Assembly (NCBI RefSeq): GCF_002196705.1
Contig: NZ_NADJ01000039.1
Coordinates: 62,001-126,000 of the forward strand
DNA: 64,000 nucleotides
Reading direction: 5' to 3'
Source of the DNA: Desulfosporosinus sp. FKB
GTDB taxonomy: Bacteria > Bacillota > Desulfitobacteriia > Desulfitobacteriales > Desulfitobacteriaceae
Shown: positions 27,635 through 61,937 of the stretch, in pieces
Position numbering within the stretch: the first letter of the stretch is position 1
Layout of the letters: each line of letters opens with the position of its first letter
Notes under the pieces: model-generated
The model's database searches: none
Seen by the model: the letters and a program-made list of their open reading frames with translations, nothing else
What the model was told of the DNA's origin: nothing
Position numbers and translations under genes: made by a program

Positions 27635-29112
27635 CTTCGGAACAGGATAAATCTTCTAAAATGTCAGCATTTTCCTTAACCATGTTGGCTATGGGGAGTA
27701 TTATCGGCGCAGGAATGTTTCTGGGAGTCGGCTTAACGATCAAACTCTCCGGTCCATCCATTATCCTTGCTTATGCCCTCATGGGAATCTTAATGTATTT
27801 TAACTTATCCTTTTTAGCCGAGCTTTCTTTGCTTGACCCAGAAAAAGGTTCATTTCAAACCTATGCTGCCAAGGCCTTTGGACCGGGAGTCGGGTTTGTT
27901 ATCGGCTGGCTCTACTGGATCTCCGGAATCCTGGTCATGTCCAGTGAGGCCACTGCCGCAGCCATCTTTAGTGCTCTTTGGTTACCCGGAATTCCCCTTT
28001 GGGCCTTCATGCTCATTTATTCAGTTGTTCTGACGGTGGTCAATCTTGCTGATCCACGCGGGTTTGGCAAATTAGAATCAGGCCTGGCCATCATTAAAGT
28101 CATTGCTCTTATCGGCTTTATTCTCTTGGGAATTGCCCTTGCCTTTTTCCCTCTTTTCGGTACTGCTCCGGGTTGGCATAACATCAGCAACACTCCCTTT
28201 TTTGCCCAGGGTTTGTCTGGCTTCGCAGGTTCTCTTTTACTTGTATTTTATGCCTATTCGGGAACTTCAGTGGTCGGGTTAGCTATCTCAGAATCTTCCG
28301 ATCCTGAAAAAACGGTCCCTAAGGTAGTTCTCTCTACCTCAGGGATAGTAGCTTCCTTCTATGTTATTTCTGTCCTGTTCCTGCTTTTGCTCCACCCCTG
28401 GACAACCTATAATGCCAGTACGAGCCCCTATGTCAGCGCTTTGCTGCCTTACAAAATTCCTATCGTCCAATCTCTTATGAACTTCGTCATTTTAACCGCC
28501 ACTTTATCGGCAATGAGTGCCAGCATGTATGGAACATCGCGGATGTTAAATGCTCTGGCCCAGCAAAAAGAAGCGCCGAATTTTTTTAACAAGGTCACAC
28601 CAAAGGCAGTTCCAAGACGTGCTCTGCTGTTCACAAACGCCTTTCTTGTTGCCATTGCCTTCCTCTCCTATATTATTCCTAACAAAATCTACTTGCTGGT
28701 AACTGGTGCCAGCGGCCTGCTCTCACTCGTTAATGTCTTAACCATTAGTCTTGCACATTGGCGTTTACGTCCAAAACTGCTAGAAAAACGGCAAGACTAT
28801 AAAACCCATGTCCTCGGTTACCCAACAAGCAATTTTATTGTAACAGCGATTTTTGTAGGTGTTTTCTTCTCAGCTTTTGCAATTCCTGACCAAAGGGCTT
28901 CCTTCTTTTTAGGGCTTAGCTTGATCGCTGTTACAGCAGGCGTTTATTTTTTAGTCCGCCACAAGCTCGGAGCAAAATCTCAAGAGCCTAAAAATATGGC
29001 AGAGCACCATGAAACCCCAACTTCAGAGAATAGTTTACATACCCTAAAACATTTGGCTCAGGAAACAGAAAAACGAATATCCGAAGGATTAAGACCTAAG
29101 AATAGATCCTAA
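27631..29112 (+). CDS. APC-superfamily amino acid permease
   Basis: A 493-residue transporter with about 12 membrane helices and a charged cytoplasmic C-terminal tail of about 50 residues. The N-terminal SMGSIIGAGMFLG-like motif (here MLAMGSIIGAGMFLGVGLT), the Gly-rich first helix and YSGTSVVGLAISESSDPEKT in the middle are typical of amino acid:proton symporters related to GabP and ProY. The substrate cannot be told. The start is TTG 27631 with AAAGGAAG upstream, overlapping the stop of the decayed frame before it (TTGA), which points to former translational coupling; ATG 27661 is an alternative with a weaker site. Confidence 0.88.
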   Translation: MTSEQDKSSKMSAFSLTMLAMGSIIGAGMFLGVGLTIKLSGPSIILAYALMGILMYFNLSFLAELSLLDPEKGSFQTYAAKAFGPGVGFVIGWLYWISGILVMSSEATAAAIFSALWLPGIPLWAFMLIYSVVLTVVNLADPRGFGKLESGLAIIKVIALIGFILLGIALAFFPLFGTAPGWHNISNTPFFAQGLSGFAGSLLLVFYAYSGTSVVGLAISESSDPEKTVPKVVLSTSGIVASFYVISVLFLLLLHPWTTYNASTSPYVSALLPYKIPIVQSLMNFVILTATLSAMSASMYGTSRMLNALAQQKEAPNFFNKVTPKAVPRRALLFTNAFLVAIAFLSYIIPNKIYLLVTGASGLLSLVNVLTISLAHWRLRPKLLEKRQDYKTHVLGYPTSNFIVTAIFVGVFFSAFAIPDQRASFFLGLSLIAVTAGVYFLVRHKLGAKSQEPKNMAEHHETPTSENSLHTLKHLAQETEKRISEGLRPKNRS

Positions 29113-29156
29113 TGGTCTTCATTATATTCCCACTTTTGCTTGCCTTACATTAAAGA

Positions 29157-29206
29157 AAGGCGTTTTCACTCCACTATACACTATGATAGTGACGTGAGAA
29201 CGCCTT
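29157..29206. terminator. Long hairpin between the permease and cooS
   Basis: AAGGCGTTTTCAC pairs with GTGAGAACGCCTT, and inside it CACTAT pairs with ATAGTG. It lies between convergent genes and probably ends both transcripts. Confidence 0.7.
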
Positions 29207-29304
29207 AGCTATTTACACTCATTTTGGGCTTTTATGGTTAAGTTTTCCACGGCCCCTTCATTCCAGCAAGCACTTAGAATATCATTAATTCAATTGTTGG
29301 GGAA

Positions 29305-31218
29305 CTAACTCAAGCCTAACCCTTTTCGCTTGCTTATAATATGGGCTTCAATGTTATCGGCAACTTCCACAGGATCATCACCAAGAGCGATCTTTCCTCC
29401 CGTTAACCCTTCCACATCTTGAGTCAAGAGCTTCACTAGTTGAGGGGCCCCAGTCACAAAAGGAGTCGGGGACAGATGGGTATAGGTGCCATAGGCTACG
29501 GCAAAAACCCCGTCAATGGTAGCCTTTTGTTCCATCCACTCAGGGGCAGTTACGGCAATCGGTAATTGCGGCACATCCACATCAAGATGATCCGCCAAAG
29601 CTGTCACCAGCATGGAAATTCTGCCTGTATCCGTACAGGTTCCGAAGCTCAGGACAGGCGGGATCTTTAAGGAGCTGCATACTTCGCTTAACCCTTTACC
29701 GGCTATCGAGAGAGCATCAAGATTGCAGAGACCCGCTACTTCCAAGGCATGATTACCGCAGCCGCCGGCGACAACCAGGATATCCCGTTTGATCAATTCC
29801 TTGGTTAAATTCACCGTATTCCAGTCCTGAGGACCATTGCGCAGCGTTGAACAGTTGGCTAAAGCAACAACCCCTTTGATCTTCCCGGCAGCTATCACAT
29901 CGACAAGCGGGTCAAGCTTATTGCCTAACGCTCCCAAAACGGCTTCCGTCGAAAATCCTGCGATAGCCTTTTGGGTGATCTTGGGAACCTTGGCGATAAT
30001 CTTCCCATGACGTTTTTTAAAGTTTTCGATCCCCAAATTAATCAATTGATCTGCCATACTCTCTACTTCATTGGGATGATACGGAATTTTATGCTCAAGC
30101 CCCGGTACCCCGATGATCGTACTGACACTGACAAGAGTAACCTGATATTTTTCCGCATACATGTCAATGGCCGGCGGAGAGCAGTTTTCTTCCATAGCCA
30201 TGACATCAACAGTACCCGTCGCCAGAAGAGGCTCTATTGCCAGCCAATTCCCCATCAAACCTACAAAAACGTCATCGACCGGGAACCTTTGGAGCAGCTC
30301 CTGGCCTGTTTCGATAGAACCTACAACTCTCAGGCCTTTAGCTCCGGCCGCTTTGGCCTTGGCTTGAATCTCCGGCAGCTTGGCCTTTTGGATGGTTGCT
30401 GCTCCTGCCCAGGGCTGATGACCATTAAAGACGATATTGACATACTCAGGGTCCATAATTCCCAGATCAACATTGACTTCATGAGGCTGGGGCGTGCCAA
30501 AGAGAATATCTTGAACCATTTCCAGCCCGATCTGGGAATTATAGATAGTAGATAACCCCAGTCTCAAAGCTTTTAGCGCCAAAGACGCATAATCTCCGTC
30601 AACATTCGTTAGACAACTCGCCACGCAGTTCTGTTCCTCATGAACAGTTCCCGCCGGATAGATATGTAGATCTCTCCAAACCTGTTTCCTTTTCTTCGGT
30701 GCAAAGGCTTCAACCATAAGATTTGGTTCTTCCGTGCCAATATTCATCTGATGGTTAAGCAGGTCAGCCAATTGAATAGCCAGCTGATTAACGTCTTGAT
30801 TGACATTAATGCCAAGAGTCTGACACATCCACTTTAGCTTATTGACGTCGGTTATTTTAAAAGGAGTTTTACCTTCCCCGGTGGCCCGAAGAGTGCGAAA
30901 GGCCTCATAAGCATGGTGACTGTAGGTCCCTGCACCCATGATATTTTGCAGCAGTAATTTTCTCATAGCCATGGCATCTGGACCGATTCCGCATACGCCT
31001 TTGTCCTGACCGCTCTTCTCACTGATCCGGCAAGGTCCATTGGAACACTGCTGACAGCTAAGCCCCTGCAAACAGAAATTACAGCGGATTTTCTCCTGTT
31101 TAGCCCAACGGTCGAAAACGTTGGACATCCCGTCTTCTCGAATTCGGGGCAGCATTTCCTCAACGGAATCGTGATAACTTACCCGTCCTTCAGATCTCTC
31201 TAAGATTGTCTCAGTCAT
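29305..31218 (-). CDS. cooS: Divergent CooS-type carbon monoxide dehydrogenase with altered C-cluster
   Basis: A 637-residue CODH-family protein. Near the N terminus Cys46-x2-Cys49 predicts a [2Fe-2S]-type D-cluster (C-x2-C as in Desulfovibrio, not C-x7-C), and Cys55, Cys58, Cys63 and Cys76 form the B-cluster. C-cluster residues are only partly kept. Kept: His in FNGHQPW, and cysteines in ALANCSTLRN, AGGCGNH and FGTCTDTGR. The usual GICCTGNE block (Cys295) reads GSIETGQE with no cysteine, and VDVQCIMP (Cys333) reads VDVMAMEENCSPP. Such remodelling recalls CODH-V of Carboxydothermus, whose cluster resembles hybrid cluster protein. CO oxidation is therefore doubtful. No cooC, cooF or acetyl-CoA synthase gene adjoins. 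AAAGGAGG precedes the ATG. Confidence 0.9.
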   Translation of the reverse strand: MTETILERSEGRVSYHDSVEEMLPRIREDGMSNVFDRWAKQEKIRCNFCLQGLSCQQCSNGPCRISEKSGQDKGVCGIGPDAMAMRKLLLQNIMGAGTYSHHAYEAFRTLRATGEGKTPFKITDVNKLKWMCQTLGINVNQDVNQLAIQLADLLNHQMNIGTEEPNLMVEAFAPKKRKQVWRDLHIYPAGTVHEEQNCVASCLTNVDGDYASLALKALRLGLSTIYNSQIGLEMVQDILFGTPQPHEVNVDLGIMDPEYVNIVFNGHQPWAGAATIQKAKLPEIQAKAKAAGAKGLRVVGSIETGQELLQRFPVDDVFVGLMGNWLAIEPLLATGTVDVMAMEENCSPPAIDMYAEKYQVTLVSVSTIIGVPGLEHKIPYHPNEVESMADQLINLGIENFKKRHGKIIAKVPKITQKAIAGFSTEAVLGALGNKLDPLVDVIAAGKIKGVVALANCSTLRNGPQDWNTVNLTKELIKRDILVVAGGCGNHALEVAGLCNLDALSIAGKGLSEVCSSLKIPPVLSFGTCTDTGRISMLVTALADHLDVDVPQLPIAVTAPEWMEQKATIDGVFAVAYGTYTHLSPTPFVTGAPQLVKLLTQDVEGLTGGKIALGDDPVEVADNIEAHIISKRKGLGLS

Positions 31219-31319
31219 TATCTATCCTCCTTTTTAATTGCTATACAAAGTTTGCTCATCAAAATACCTAAATATGTACATGCTAGAAGATAAATGTAGT
31301 AACATAAGGAGGCATAAAA

Positions 31320-31667
31320 ATGGAAGAAAGTACTTCTAAAAAAACCGGACCGGAACATCTTAAAGCCAAGCAAATTGTCTATTATGTTTTAGGGGTTCTC
31401 GAAGTCTTATTCACCTTTCGCCTTATCTTTAAACTTCTCGGTGCTAATCCCCTTAGCCCTTTTGTTTCTCTCATCTATGCAGTAACTCAAGTGTTCTTAG
31501 CACCTTTTTCCGGAATCTTTCCTTCAGCTGTCACAAAGGGTCTGGAAACCCAGTCAGTGCTGGAATCGTCAACCATTATTGCTATGATTGTCTATGCAGT
31601 TCTGGCCTGGGGAGTACTTAAACTGATTGATATCAGCCGTAATTCTCATAACGTTGGAAACCGTTAA
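31320..31667 (+). CDS. yggT: YggT-family membrane protein
   Basis: A 115-residue protein with two hydrophobic segments (about 23-45 and 78-100). YVLGVLEVLFTFRLIFKLLG and FVSLIYAVTQVFLAPFSGIF fit the YggT family, small inner-membrane proteins linked to osmotic tolerance and division-related functions but without a settled activity. AAGGAGG precedes the ATG. It is divergent from cooS with 101 bp between them. Confidence 0.85.
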   Translation: MEESTSKKTGPEHLKAKQIVYYVLGVLEVLFTFRLIFKLLGANPLSPFVSLIYAVTQVFLAPFSGIFPSAVTKGLETQSVLESSTIIAMIVYAVLAWGVLKLIDISRNSHNVGNR

Positions 31668-31693
31668 GAACCTGTCAAGATCGAACATAGGGG

Positions 31694-31778
31694 CTTCGGT
31701 TGGAGACTCTATCCCCACCAAAGCAAGGTATGGGAACCACACCTACTTGTAGAAGAGGGAGTATTACGATTTGATAAA
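31694..31778 (+). repeat. Dispersed ~80-bp repeat, copy 1
   Basis: Shares TCGGWTGG..ACTCTATCCCCAC, then ARGYAA..TATGGGAAC, ACTTGTAGAAG and GAGTATTACG blocks with copies at 41637 and 59354. The layout (paired CTCCCACTT/AAGTGGGAG arms in the best copy, same orientation) looks like the 3' end of an IS200/IS605-IS1341 element, but no tnpB is present. The remaining 31668-31961 has no gene. Confidence 0.7.
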
Positions 31779-59353: not shown

Positions 59354-59436
59354 CTCGGATGGACTCTATCCCCACGTAAGCAACATATGGGAACTACGCC
59401 CACTTGCAGAAGTGAGAGTCATACAATTGGATAAAT
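59354..59436 (+). repeat. Dispersed ~80-bp repeat, copy 3
   Basis: Contains TCGGATGGACTCTATCCCCA, then TATGGGAACTACGCCCACTT, GCAGAAGTGAGAG and TTGGATAAATT, matching copies 1 and 2 in the same orientation. It covers the 3' end of the convergent Spo0E-like gene. Confidence 0.7.
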
Positions 59437-59614
59437 TATGATCGCTGTCATCAACCTTACGCTTTAGCAATCCCTTTCGAGAATTCAACTGTCGCCTCAT
59501 ATACTTTACAATTTCCACATCAAGTTCTTGACTAATAGTTAATACCTCATCTGAAGAACATTTTCCCCAAGCTGAATGGAGTTTGGACCTAAGGAGTTCA
59601 ATTCTTTCTGTCAT
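59366..59614 (-). CDS. Spo0E-like aspartyl phosphatase with repeat-derived tail
   Basis: An 82-residue protein. The first ~45 residues match Spo0E-like sporulation phosphatases: an initial helix (ERIELLRSKLHSAW) and the signature ISQELDVEIVKYMR. Family members are usually about 45-65 residues and remove phosphate from Spo0A~P. Here the last ~23 residues (from about SNCMTL on) are encoded by the dispersed repeat at 59354-59436, so the original stop seems to have been lost or displaced when that element arrived. The ATG at 59614 starts MTERIELL; I found only a weak ribosome site. Confidence 0.8.
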   Translation of the reverse strand: MTERIELLRSKLHSAWGKCSSDEVLTISQELDVEIVKYMRRQLNSRKGLLKRKVDDSDHNLSNCMTLTSASGRSSHMLLTWG

Positions 59615-59656
59615 AACTAGTCCTCCCCCAGAATTTCTAACGTTTTTCCCTATCGA

Positions 59657-59980
59657 TTATTCAGGAAAGTTTTCCATAATAAACCCAACCGCACCTAATG
59701 AAATGGCATCTTTGACCTGGTGTTCATTCCCCAAAGAAGTAATAATGATAATTCTGGCACCGTTATCTATTTCTTTAATCATTTTGATAGCCTTAAGCCC
59801 ATCTAATTTGGGCATTATAATATCCATAGTTACAATATCAGGCTTTAGGTCATTATAAAGCTGTATAGCTGTCAGTCCATTATCAGCTTCACCTACAACT
59901 TCAAAGCCGCTGGTTTCTAAGAGGTTTTTAATAGAACGTCTCTTTAATGCCGAGTCGTCAACAATTAATGCTCTCTTCAA
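59657..59980 (-). CDS. Single-domain response regulator (CheY-like)
   Basis: A 107-residue receiver domain alone. Acidic residues in ALIVDDSALKR, phospho-Asp in DIVTMDIIMPKLDG and Thr in IIITSLGNE are present. The conserved Lys normally found in a FIVKPF motif is replaced: the sequence reads GFIMENFPE. The chain also ends directly after it, about 10 residues short of CheY. Phosphorylation may still occur, but signalling may differ. It lies 42 bp upstream of the Spo0E-like gene on the same strand, so the two may form a small phosphorelay-tuning unit. Confidence 0.88.
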   Translation of the reverse strand: MKRALIVDDSALKRRSIKNLLETSGFEVVGEADNGLTAIQLYNDLKPDIVTMDIIMPKLDGLKAIKMIKEIDNGARIIIITSLGNEHQVKDAISLGAVGFIMENFPE

Positions 59981-60238
59981 TTACTTAACACCTCATGTTC
60001 TTCTGGTGAACAACATTTTAATTCCTTATAATCTATTGTAACAATTTATGAACTTGACGATAGTACACAAGGTCATTGATTTTAATGCCAAAAGCACTTA
60101 CTACCTCATGCTGATAGCATTTATAATTTTAAGGTTAATGCTATATTTTAAATTTTCACAATAAACCGTAAAGTTCATTTTTAGATTATCTCGTTGTATA
60201 ATATTTAATAAGATATACTTTTTAGAGGAGTTCATATT

Positions 60239-60622
60239 ATGTCTTTTAACGACGATAAAAACAAGATGATTGAAACTTGCCAAGCCATCTTAGAATCTTG
60301 TGATAAGCCCTTTGTTTGGGAAGAAGAAGGTTCTTATAAATATGGCAACTTTAAAAAACCTTTTAATTTATTTTTTCCTCATCCGCAAATCGATGCAGAG
60401 TTACAAAAGTTGTTTGAGAAATTTTCTAATTCTTCTTATTTATACGATCAGATTAAATCCACCTGTACCCTCGAGTCTGAATGGTCTGAATCAGGAACAT
60501 ACGGTTTAGATAGGGATTTTACTTGTTACTTTAGCAAATTCGCTTTAAAGCCCAATTATGTCGAACAAATCAAAGCATATTTTAGTCAACGCCTCAACGA
60601 ATTGCAGAAAGAATCTAACTAG
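60239..60622 (+). CDS. Hypothetical protein (127 aa)
   Basis: Not recognised. It is a soluble, acidic protein rich in aromatic residues, with four cysteines (in ETCQAILESC, STCTLES and FTCYFSKF), and starts SFNDDKNKMIETCQAIL. No signal peptide or membrane segment. AGAGGAG lies about 9 nt before the ATG, so it is probably expressed. No operon partner; neighbours are the response regulator (divergent) and citD 295 bp downstream. Confidence 0.7.
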   Translation: MSFNDDKNKMIETCQAILESCDKPFVWEEEGSYKYGNFKKPFNLFFPHPQIDAELQKLFEKFSNSSYLYDQIKSTCTLESEWSESGTYGLDRDFTCYFSKFALKPNYVEQIKAYFSQRLNELQKESN

Positions 60623-60916
60623 AATGCATAAAACCTATTCTTATATTCTATTTTTCATTTAATAATTGGCATATAATTAAAAAATTTTTCTAATTAATGA
60701 GGTATTTGTCTTTATTATGTGAAACTCAGTTTCATATAATAAAACTTATAACATTAGATAACATGTCTCTTCTTAATAGCTGCAAATGCAAAACTCTTCT
60801 TTCCGCTTGATAATGTTATTACATTTGGGTATGTTAGGAGTTGATGGTTATTGTTAAATTAGAAGTATTTTGTCATGATTAAAATGCTCAAGATTATGTA
60901 CGAGGAGGATTAAGCG
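60623..60916. other. AT-rich leader region of the citrate lyase operon
   Basis: About 290 bp with no gene of normal size. It must hold the operon promoter, but no -35/-10 pair stands out. A 12-codon ORF with a GGAG site near 60846 exists but is too short to call. Confidence 0.4.
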
Positions 60917-61189
60917 ATGAAAATTAATAAGACCGCGCAGGCTGGAGCTTTGGAATCCAGCGATGTACTTGTTACCGTTGAACCCAATCCCGATGGTGGG
61001 ATTAAAGTTGAGCTCGAAACAAAACGCGTTATTCAGAAACAATTTGGCAAGCAAATCGAGAAAGTGATTCTTGAGACTGCACAACAAAGCGGCGCTGAAG
61101 ATGTACTTATTAAAGCTCAGGACAAAGGCGCATTGGATTATACATTCAGGGCTAGGGTTCAAGCAGCGCTTCAAAGGGCTTCTCTTTAG
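60917..61189 (+). CDS. citD: Citrate lyase acyl carrier protein (gamma subunit)
   Basis: A 90-residue protein carrying the prosthetic group of citrate lyase. The N-terminal QAGALESSDVLVTVEP includes the serine (near residue 14) that takes the phosphoribosyl-dephospho-CoA arm. The length is normal. GAGGAGG precedes the ATG. First gene of citD-citE-citF. The genes for attaching the group (citG, citX) and for the acetate ligase (citC) are not in the window. Confidence 0.93.
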   Translation: MKINKTAQAGALESSDVLVTVEPNPDGGIKVELETKRVIQKQFGKQIEKVILETAQQSGAEDVLIKAQDKGALDYTFRARVQAALQRASL

Positions 61190-61232
61190 CCTTTTATAGA
61201 TGACTAAGATAATATGAAAAGGAGTATCAAGA

Positions 61233-61937
61233 ATGAGCAAAAACAGGAGTATGCTTATTATTCCAGGAAATAGCCCTAAGGGGCTGCAAAACGCTCCGGT
61301 ATTTTACCCGGATTTACTTGTCCTTGATCTGGCTGATGGTGTGCCGTTTGAAGATAAGGACAGCGCCCGCTTACTCGTTAAAGAAGCCATCGGTTTTATG
61401 GATTATGAAAATACCCAGGTCGTCGTAAGAATTAATTCCCTCCAATCAGGTTTCGGAGCTAAAGACATTGAGGTCATTACCCCAGTTCAACCCGTTGCTT
61501 TTGTTATTCCACAAGGAAGCGTAGAACAGCTTCAAGACATTGAAATCCTTTTAACAGAATCTGAAAAGAAGGCGGGACTAAAAGAAGGAAGTATTGGATT
61601 GATCCCAGTGGTTGATACCGTTAAGGCTTTAGAACAAATGTCTTCACTTCTTAACACTTCCCCCCGCATCAAAAGTGCCTTTTTTAATGCCGAAGGTCTT
61701 GCTCAAGAACTTGGAATCATTCGCAGTAAAGAAGGCGACGAGATCCTCTATGCCCGCAGTAAGTTTGCCATGGCTTGTCGAGTTGCCGGCATGAATAGTT
61801 TTGATACTTCCTTTATTGACAGCAACGATTATGAGGGCTTGGAGAAGGATTGTTTTAAAGCCCGCAATCTCGGCTTCACTGGTAAAGCTGCCATTGATGG
61901 CCGGCAAATTGATACAATTCATAAAATCTTTGTTTAA
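61233..61937 (+). CDS. citE: Short, divergent CitE-like (HpcH/HpaI) protein
   Basis: A 234-residue relative of the citrate lyase beta subunit, about 60 residues shorter than the usual ~295 because the C-terminal part is absent. Kept blocks: SMLIIPGNSPKGLQNAPVFY, VVVRINSL, LYARSKFAMACRVAGMNSFD and GLEKDCFKARNLGFTGKAAI. Changed blocks: FDLEDAV is LDLADGV, the RLPK strand is FVIPQG, LGAEDFTADLG is FNAEGLAQELG (metal-site Asp lost), and NPRQ is DGRQ. So the lyase active site looks altered. It sits between good citD and citF genes with normal spacing, so it is likely a real subunit. Whether it cleaves citryl-CoA or another substrate is unclear. Confidence 0.85.
   Translation: MSKNRSMLIIPGNSPKGLQNAPVFYPDLLVLDLADGVPFEDKDSARLLVKEAIGFMDYENTQVVVRINSLQSGFGAKDIEVITPVQPVAFVIPQGSVEQLQDIEILLTESEKKAGLKEGSIGLIPVVDTVKALEQMSSLLNTSPRIKSAFFNAEGLAQELGIIRSKEGDEILYARSKFAMACRVAGMNSFDTSFIDSNDYEGLEKDCFKARNLGFTGKAAIDGRQIDTIHKIFV

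Follow-up and report, generated by a model that had tools for sequence, protein, structure and literature searches.

Gene, family and fold

The window analyzed, a stretch of 64,000 nucleotides on contig C33 of the 5.1 Mb genome of Desulfosporosinus sp. FKB, whose same-genus relatives include named Desulfosporosinus species, carries an intact open reading frame of 637 residues on the minus strand (29305..31218). Profiles, alignment and phylogeny place it among the cooS-V-type genes (CODH clade D, structural group D-1). The protein scores 892 bits with the CODH model TIGR01702, for which 478 bits are required, and is also matched by PF03063, while it reaches no more than 46 of the 360.8 bits required by the curated HCP model TIGR01703. 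A sequence search of the PDB returned CooS-V (7b7q) first, with an E-value of 9e-262, followed by a true CODH at 1.4e-125, and the identity to CooS-V of Carboxydothermus hydrogenoformans is about 62% over the whole chain. Copies that are 78-97% identical occur in most members of the genus, and the gene is found in many members of the family and order as well. The protein is an ortholog of CooS-V, ordinary in kind and with no new design. The enzyme type was in the literature before: the name "structural group D-1" dates from 2019 (PMC6344411) and the crystal structure of CooS-V, with its nickel-free Fe/S/O hybrid cluster, was published by Jeoung et al. in 2022 (PMC9311411).

The AlphaFold model of the protein (mean pLDDT 81.8, low near residues 1-8, 52-62, 562-568 and 584-589) fits 7b7q best, with a Z-score of 54.4 and an rmsd of 1.5 over 616 residues at 61% identity, and Foldseek likewise ranks CooS-V first. 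Canonical CODHs fit the model nearly equally well (Z about 44-54), and class III HCP gives a Z-score of 28.7. CooS-V and CODH are told apart by their residues and not by the fold alone.

The gene is solitary, with a converging amino-acid permease gene on one side and a divergent yggT on the other, and no cooC, acs or cooF neighbor was found in the part of the window examined. The initial annotation described it as standing alone without cooC or ACS genes, which is true of the locus but not of the genome: elsewhere the host has a locus for CODH/ACS that includes a cooC-like ATPase (ACS confirmed by TIGR00316), a CODH with a CooF-like ferredoxin on one side and an FNOR-like protein on the other, and an HCP. 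CooC, CooF and FNOR were assigned from sequence. Within Desulfosporosinus loci, yggT is the only consistently recurring neighbor, met genes recurring in part. In several other loci (L080, L086, L089, L092, L104 and L112) a metal-type P-type ATPase and an ArsR-type regulator are encoded a few genes away, a proximity that points only weakly to a partnership.

Two individual copies deserve mention. A 75% identical relative (L032, G184:C18:120879-122786) has one in-frame TGA counted inside the matched stretch, and a copy with 84% identity, deposited under the title Calditrichales bacterium MX18-03 (L071, JAJGRE010000002.1), is nested among Firmicutes sequences, which reflects either horizontal transfer or a mislabelled record.

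Cluster ligands

An alignment was built from the protein, CooS-V, CODH-IV, both other CODHs encoded by the genome, and some 160 relatives. The canonical GICCTGNE block, which the other two CODHs of the genome retain with small variations, reads GSIETGQE in the 637-residue protein, and the position of Cys295 of CODH-II is occupied by Glu303 (30310..30312, minus strand; Glu295 of CooS-V, PMC9311411). The loss of a C-cluster cysteine reported in the initial annotation is thus borne out. The same annotation regarded a second cysteine block as rewritten to MEENC, and this holds only for the residues preceding the cysteine (VDVQC to MEENC): the cysteine of the Asn345-Cys346 pair (30181..30186, minus strand; Asn337-Cys338 of CooS-V) is retained as a ligand and aligns with Cys333 of CODH-II, so that one cysteine has changed and not two blocks. 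In other words, alignment with CODH-II and CooS-V gives a canonical cysteine at MEENC only and a glutamate at the Cys295 position. Since CooS-V reads GSIESGQE and MDMNC at the corresponding positions, the flagged feature is the published CooS-V signature. In the CooS-V structure, Asn337 forms a hydrogen bond to a cluster water (PMC9311411).

Every CODH cluster ligand save Cys295 is present, including the equivalents of His261, Cys333, Cys446, Cys476 and Cys526, and Lys563 is likewise conserved. All positions given below are on the minus strand and derive from the alignment. The other predicted hybrid cluster ligands are His267 (30418..30420; His261 of CODH-II, His259 of CooS-V), Cys456 (29851..29853; Cys449 of CooS-V), Cys487 (29758..29760; Cys480) and the persulfide-forming Cys528 (29635..29637; Cys521), together with Glu563 (29530..29532), which lies two residues ahead of Lys565 and corresponds to Glu556 of CooS-V and Glu494 of the Desulfovibrio vulgaris HCP. 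Tyr99 (30922..30924), invariant in alignment A1, occupies the position of the acid-base His. The B-cluster motif C55-X2-C58-X4-C63-X12-C76 (30991..31056) for a [4Fe-4S] cluster has spacing identical to that of CooS-V. At the subunit interface, Cys46 (31081..31083; offset by 8 residues to CooS-V) and Cys49 (31072..31074; Cys41 of CooS-V, PMC9311411) form the CX2C motif of a type III [2Fe-2S] D-cluster as tabulated in PMC6344411; Gly takes the place of Cys49 in the genome's canonical CODHs. The remaining cluster cysteines (C456, C487, C528, B-cluster C55/58/63/76 and D-cluster C46/49) are therefore all in place, as had been claimed, and the residue set, including the CX2C D-cluster, is the one that defines group D-1 (PMC6344411).

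In a profile alignment with the HCP of the same genome, C346, C456, C487, C528 and E563 align with HCP residues, while a gap is found at E303; the equivalence of Glu303 and HCP Glu268 rests on published structures (PMC6344411, PMC9311411).

Phylogeny, distribution and a conserved upstream element

Among the roughly 160 aligned relatives, 130 have Glu at the Cys295 position, and the full ligand set is present in 129 of these. On a tree of 79 sequences, obtained by a quick search and containing some long branches elsewhere, the 46 Glu-bearing sequences including CooS-V form one branch with an SH-aLRT support of 100, consistent with one change. The Cys295Glu replacement is far from a chance event: 130 sequences have it, and those placed on the tree share a single branch. 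Sister groups (L152-L165) differ from the 637-residue protein in that they retain Cys295, within SMCTGQE or HVCEGQQ, but the Asn ahead of Cys333 is already there, as is the HCP-type Glu, suggesting that both traits probably predate the Cys295Glu change.

The one Glu-bearing sequence with an incomplete ligand set is L138 (G242:C21:57435-63324; gene at 59435-61324, minus strand), which is of D-1 descent and whose reading frame is open over 656 codons. It has Glu295 and the B- and D-cluster cysteines, while all four remaining hybrid-cluster cysteines are gone (S, G, S, S) and Glu556 is replaced by Asp; judged from these replacements, it is a probable pseudoenzyme of CooS-V. Two further CooS-like sequences on a long branch (L178 and L179, from G039:C5 and G041:C7) are without His261 and Cys295, reading NVMEFAWGQ or NVMALGWGQ there, and have Arg at the Lys563 position.

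At least 23 of 54 D-1 genomes encode no CODH other than the cooS-V-type one (a single TIGR01702 match); the 54 were chosen by hand and carry no stated completeness where named, so that 23 of 54 is not to be read as a frequency. No TIGR00316 match to ACS was found in 22 of the 23, among them L067, L076, L077, L095, L111, L127 and L128 (G448, G451, G452, G462, G469, G478 and G479); the other genome has a sub-cut-off match (329.8 versus 355.95 bits) in a 360-residue frame at G415:C27:17664-18497. Two of the sole-CODH genomes (G043 and G234) are single-contig assemblies with 99% completeness, and the species represented include Clostridium tetanomorphum, C. thermopalmarium, C. pascui, C. sardiniense and Fonticella tunisiensis. 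This distribution fits a role outside CO metabolism, and it runs contrary to a statement in PMC9311411. The available portion of PMC13056359 reports no more than co-occurrence tendencies.

Upstream of the gene we identified an element of the form TACATA-N15-GAGCAAACTT (31248..31278, minus strand), located 60 nt before the ATG and promoter-like in layout. Of 131 regions upstream of D-1 genes, 39 contain TACATA-N(14-15)-G..(.)AAACTT, with near-fixed spacing and mostly 60-90 nt before the start, where mononucleotide shuffling gives an expectation of 0.1; the pattern was composed after viewing the data, and the relatives are not independent. The element precedes D-1 genes across Clostridia, and its flanks are far diverged between loci. 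The short leader and the distance between the blocks point to a putative promoter. A scan for sigma-70 sites found nothing promoter-like immediately before the gene, and an Rfam search of 29000-31700 found no RNA family.

The exact pattern occurs once in the host genome, at the cooS-V-type gene, and the near matches (up to two mismatches) mostly do not look connected to gene starts, one of them lying before an aminopeptidase-like open reading frame; we therefore set aside the idea of a regulon within this genome. By eye, the layout resembles that of spoIIR in the same genus (L267; GTTTA-N15-GGACAGGCTT), but a forespore-like layout is not clear for gpr and spoVT, and the -35 block of the element is TACATA as opposed to GTATA, GTTTA or GAATA. 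It is conceivable, if improbable, that CooS-V-type proteins serve a non-CO process widespread in spore-forming Clostridia, under their own conserved promoter ACATA-N15-GRRMAAACTT read possibly by a forespore-type sigma factor, with the hybrid cluster acting in sporulation or in the spore. The sole-CODH genomes and the upstream element are two points that go beyond the cited literature on the CooS-V type. Together they provide cultured species and a regulatory entry point for work on the natural substrate that would be free of interference from real CODHs.

Function and relation to known systems

The protein is very probably a CooS-V-type homodimeric Fe-S protein that uses the CODH scaffold to hold a nickel-free Fe/S/O hybrid cluster; it is most likely a low-potential reductase whose substrate would be a small oxidant or stress molecule, and not a CO dehydrogenase. 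All ligands of CooS-V are conserved, and on this basis we infer with high confidence that cluster type and general behavior are those of the solved ortholog. CooS-V contains a [2Fe-2S] D-cluster, [4Fe-4S] B-clusters and the hybrid cluster; it contains no nickel and catalyzes neither CO oxidation nor CO2 reduction. Its hybrid cluster morphs between a [4Fe-3S] and an oxo form, and the channel is open in the reduced state only (PMC9311411). By analogy, electrons would pass from the interface D-cluster and the B-clusters to a hybrid cluster held by His267, Glu303, Cys346, Cys456, Cys487, persulfide-forming Cys528 and Glu563, and this cluster would cycle between a reduced [4Fe-3S] state accessible to small molecules and an oxidized form that closes the channel. 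A nickel-free cluster shuttling in this way would most likely serve a low-potential reductase. The solved ortholog likewise backs the earlier proposal of a rebuilt, HCP-like cluster with a likely loss of CO oxidation.

That the protein should still be a CO dehydrogenase, with an altered yet nickel-binding C-cluster, is very hard to sustain. TIGR01702 does call it a CODH, the remaining C-cluster ligands are all present, and Methanosarcina acetivorans genetics, as far as cited in PMC6344411, suggest some involvement of D-1 proteins in CO oxidation, a point that speaks against the nickel-free reading. However, CooS-V is devoid of nickel and CO activity, the CODH-II variants C295A and C295E are Ni-deficient and have lost CO oxidation (PMC9311411), and hosts in which the gene is the sole CODH gene are, but for one, without a detected ACS. 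In C. autoethanogenum and A. fulgidus, clade D enzymes have shown no clear CO role, as reported in the available part of PMC13056359.

An HCP-like physiology, in which the enzyme detoxifies NO, hydroxylamine or peroxide under nitrosative or oxidative stress, would narrow our preferred explanation rather than exclude it, and we consider it a tentative possibility. The ligand set is that of HCP (PMC6344411), CooS-V has a hybrid cluster and turns over hydroxylamine slowly, and an additional D-cluster cysteine has been tied to oxygen tolerance in another CODH; a further PF03063 gene of the HCP type is found in 20 of the 23 sole-CODH genomes. On the other side, the host already encodes a genuine HCP. 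Hydroxylamine reduction by CooS-V proceeds with a kcat of 0.13/s and an efficiency of 20 per M per s, lower than that of even a normal CODH and about two orders of magnitude under HCP, NO reduction does not rise above background, and the potentials are about 300 mV more negative (PMC9311411). The nitrogen-oxide or hydroxylamine role proposed in the initial annotation is therefore weak, this chemistry having already been tested in the literature with a largely negative outcome for nitrogen oxides, and hydroxylamine, only a slow substrate of the ortholog, is turned over too slowly to be named as the substrate. Nor was the HcpR2 motif GTAACnnnnGTTAC seen in the upstream sequence examined. C. difficile cooS CD0174, which is linked to sigma-B and to aerobic and nitrosative stress, was set aside, as it lies in a cooS-cooF-oxidoreductase operon and is therefore probably not of the CooS-V type.

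The available part of PMC13056359 suggests that clade D proteins might be redox sensors or regulators instead of metabolic enzymes, a role that seems unlikely to us here. A cluster that morphs with redox state, a gated channel, very slow turnover and a solitary gene would all agree with sensing, but neither a signaling partner nor a conserved neighbor was found in the loci searched, and the strict conservation of ligands is equally compatible with catalysis. Databases still label CooS-V-type proteins as carbon monoxide dehydrogenases, and counting them as such therefore inflates apparent CO metabolism.

Among known systems, CooS-V (PDB 7B7Q, 7B7T, 7B95, 7B97 and 7B9A) is homologous to the 637-residue protein over the whole length and shares with it Cys295Glu, the D-, B- and hybrid-cluster ligands, and the Tyr and Lys residues. 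It differs in its host, Carboxydothermus as opposed to a Desulfosporosinus in which the protein is known here from sequence, and in its gene, before which the upstream element of D-1 loci was not seen. Canonical Ni,Fe-CODHs (CODH-II, CODH-IV and D. vulgaris CODH; clades E and F) have the fold and five of six C-cluster ligands in common with it, whereas the complete C-cluster set with Cys295 that characterizes them is broken here by Glu303. Further differences of the protein are a Tyr in place of the acid-base His, an Asn preceding Cys333, a Glu two positions ahead of the Lys and, in the D-cluster, Cys for Gly, a Cys that D. vulgaris CODH also has. HCP (hydroxylamine reductase) resembles it in cluster ligand types, in the EQKA motif with Glu494 and in a related fold, but at about 20% identity, and a CooS-type sequence and a D-cluster set the 637-residue protein apart. 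As the protein belongs to the CooS branch, its hybrid cluster would have been gained separately from that of HCP.
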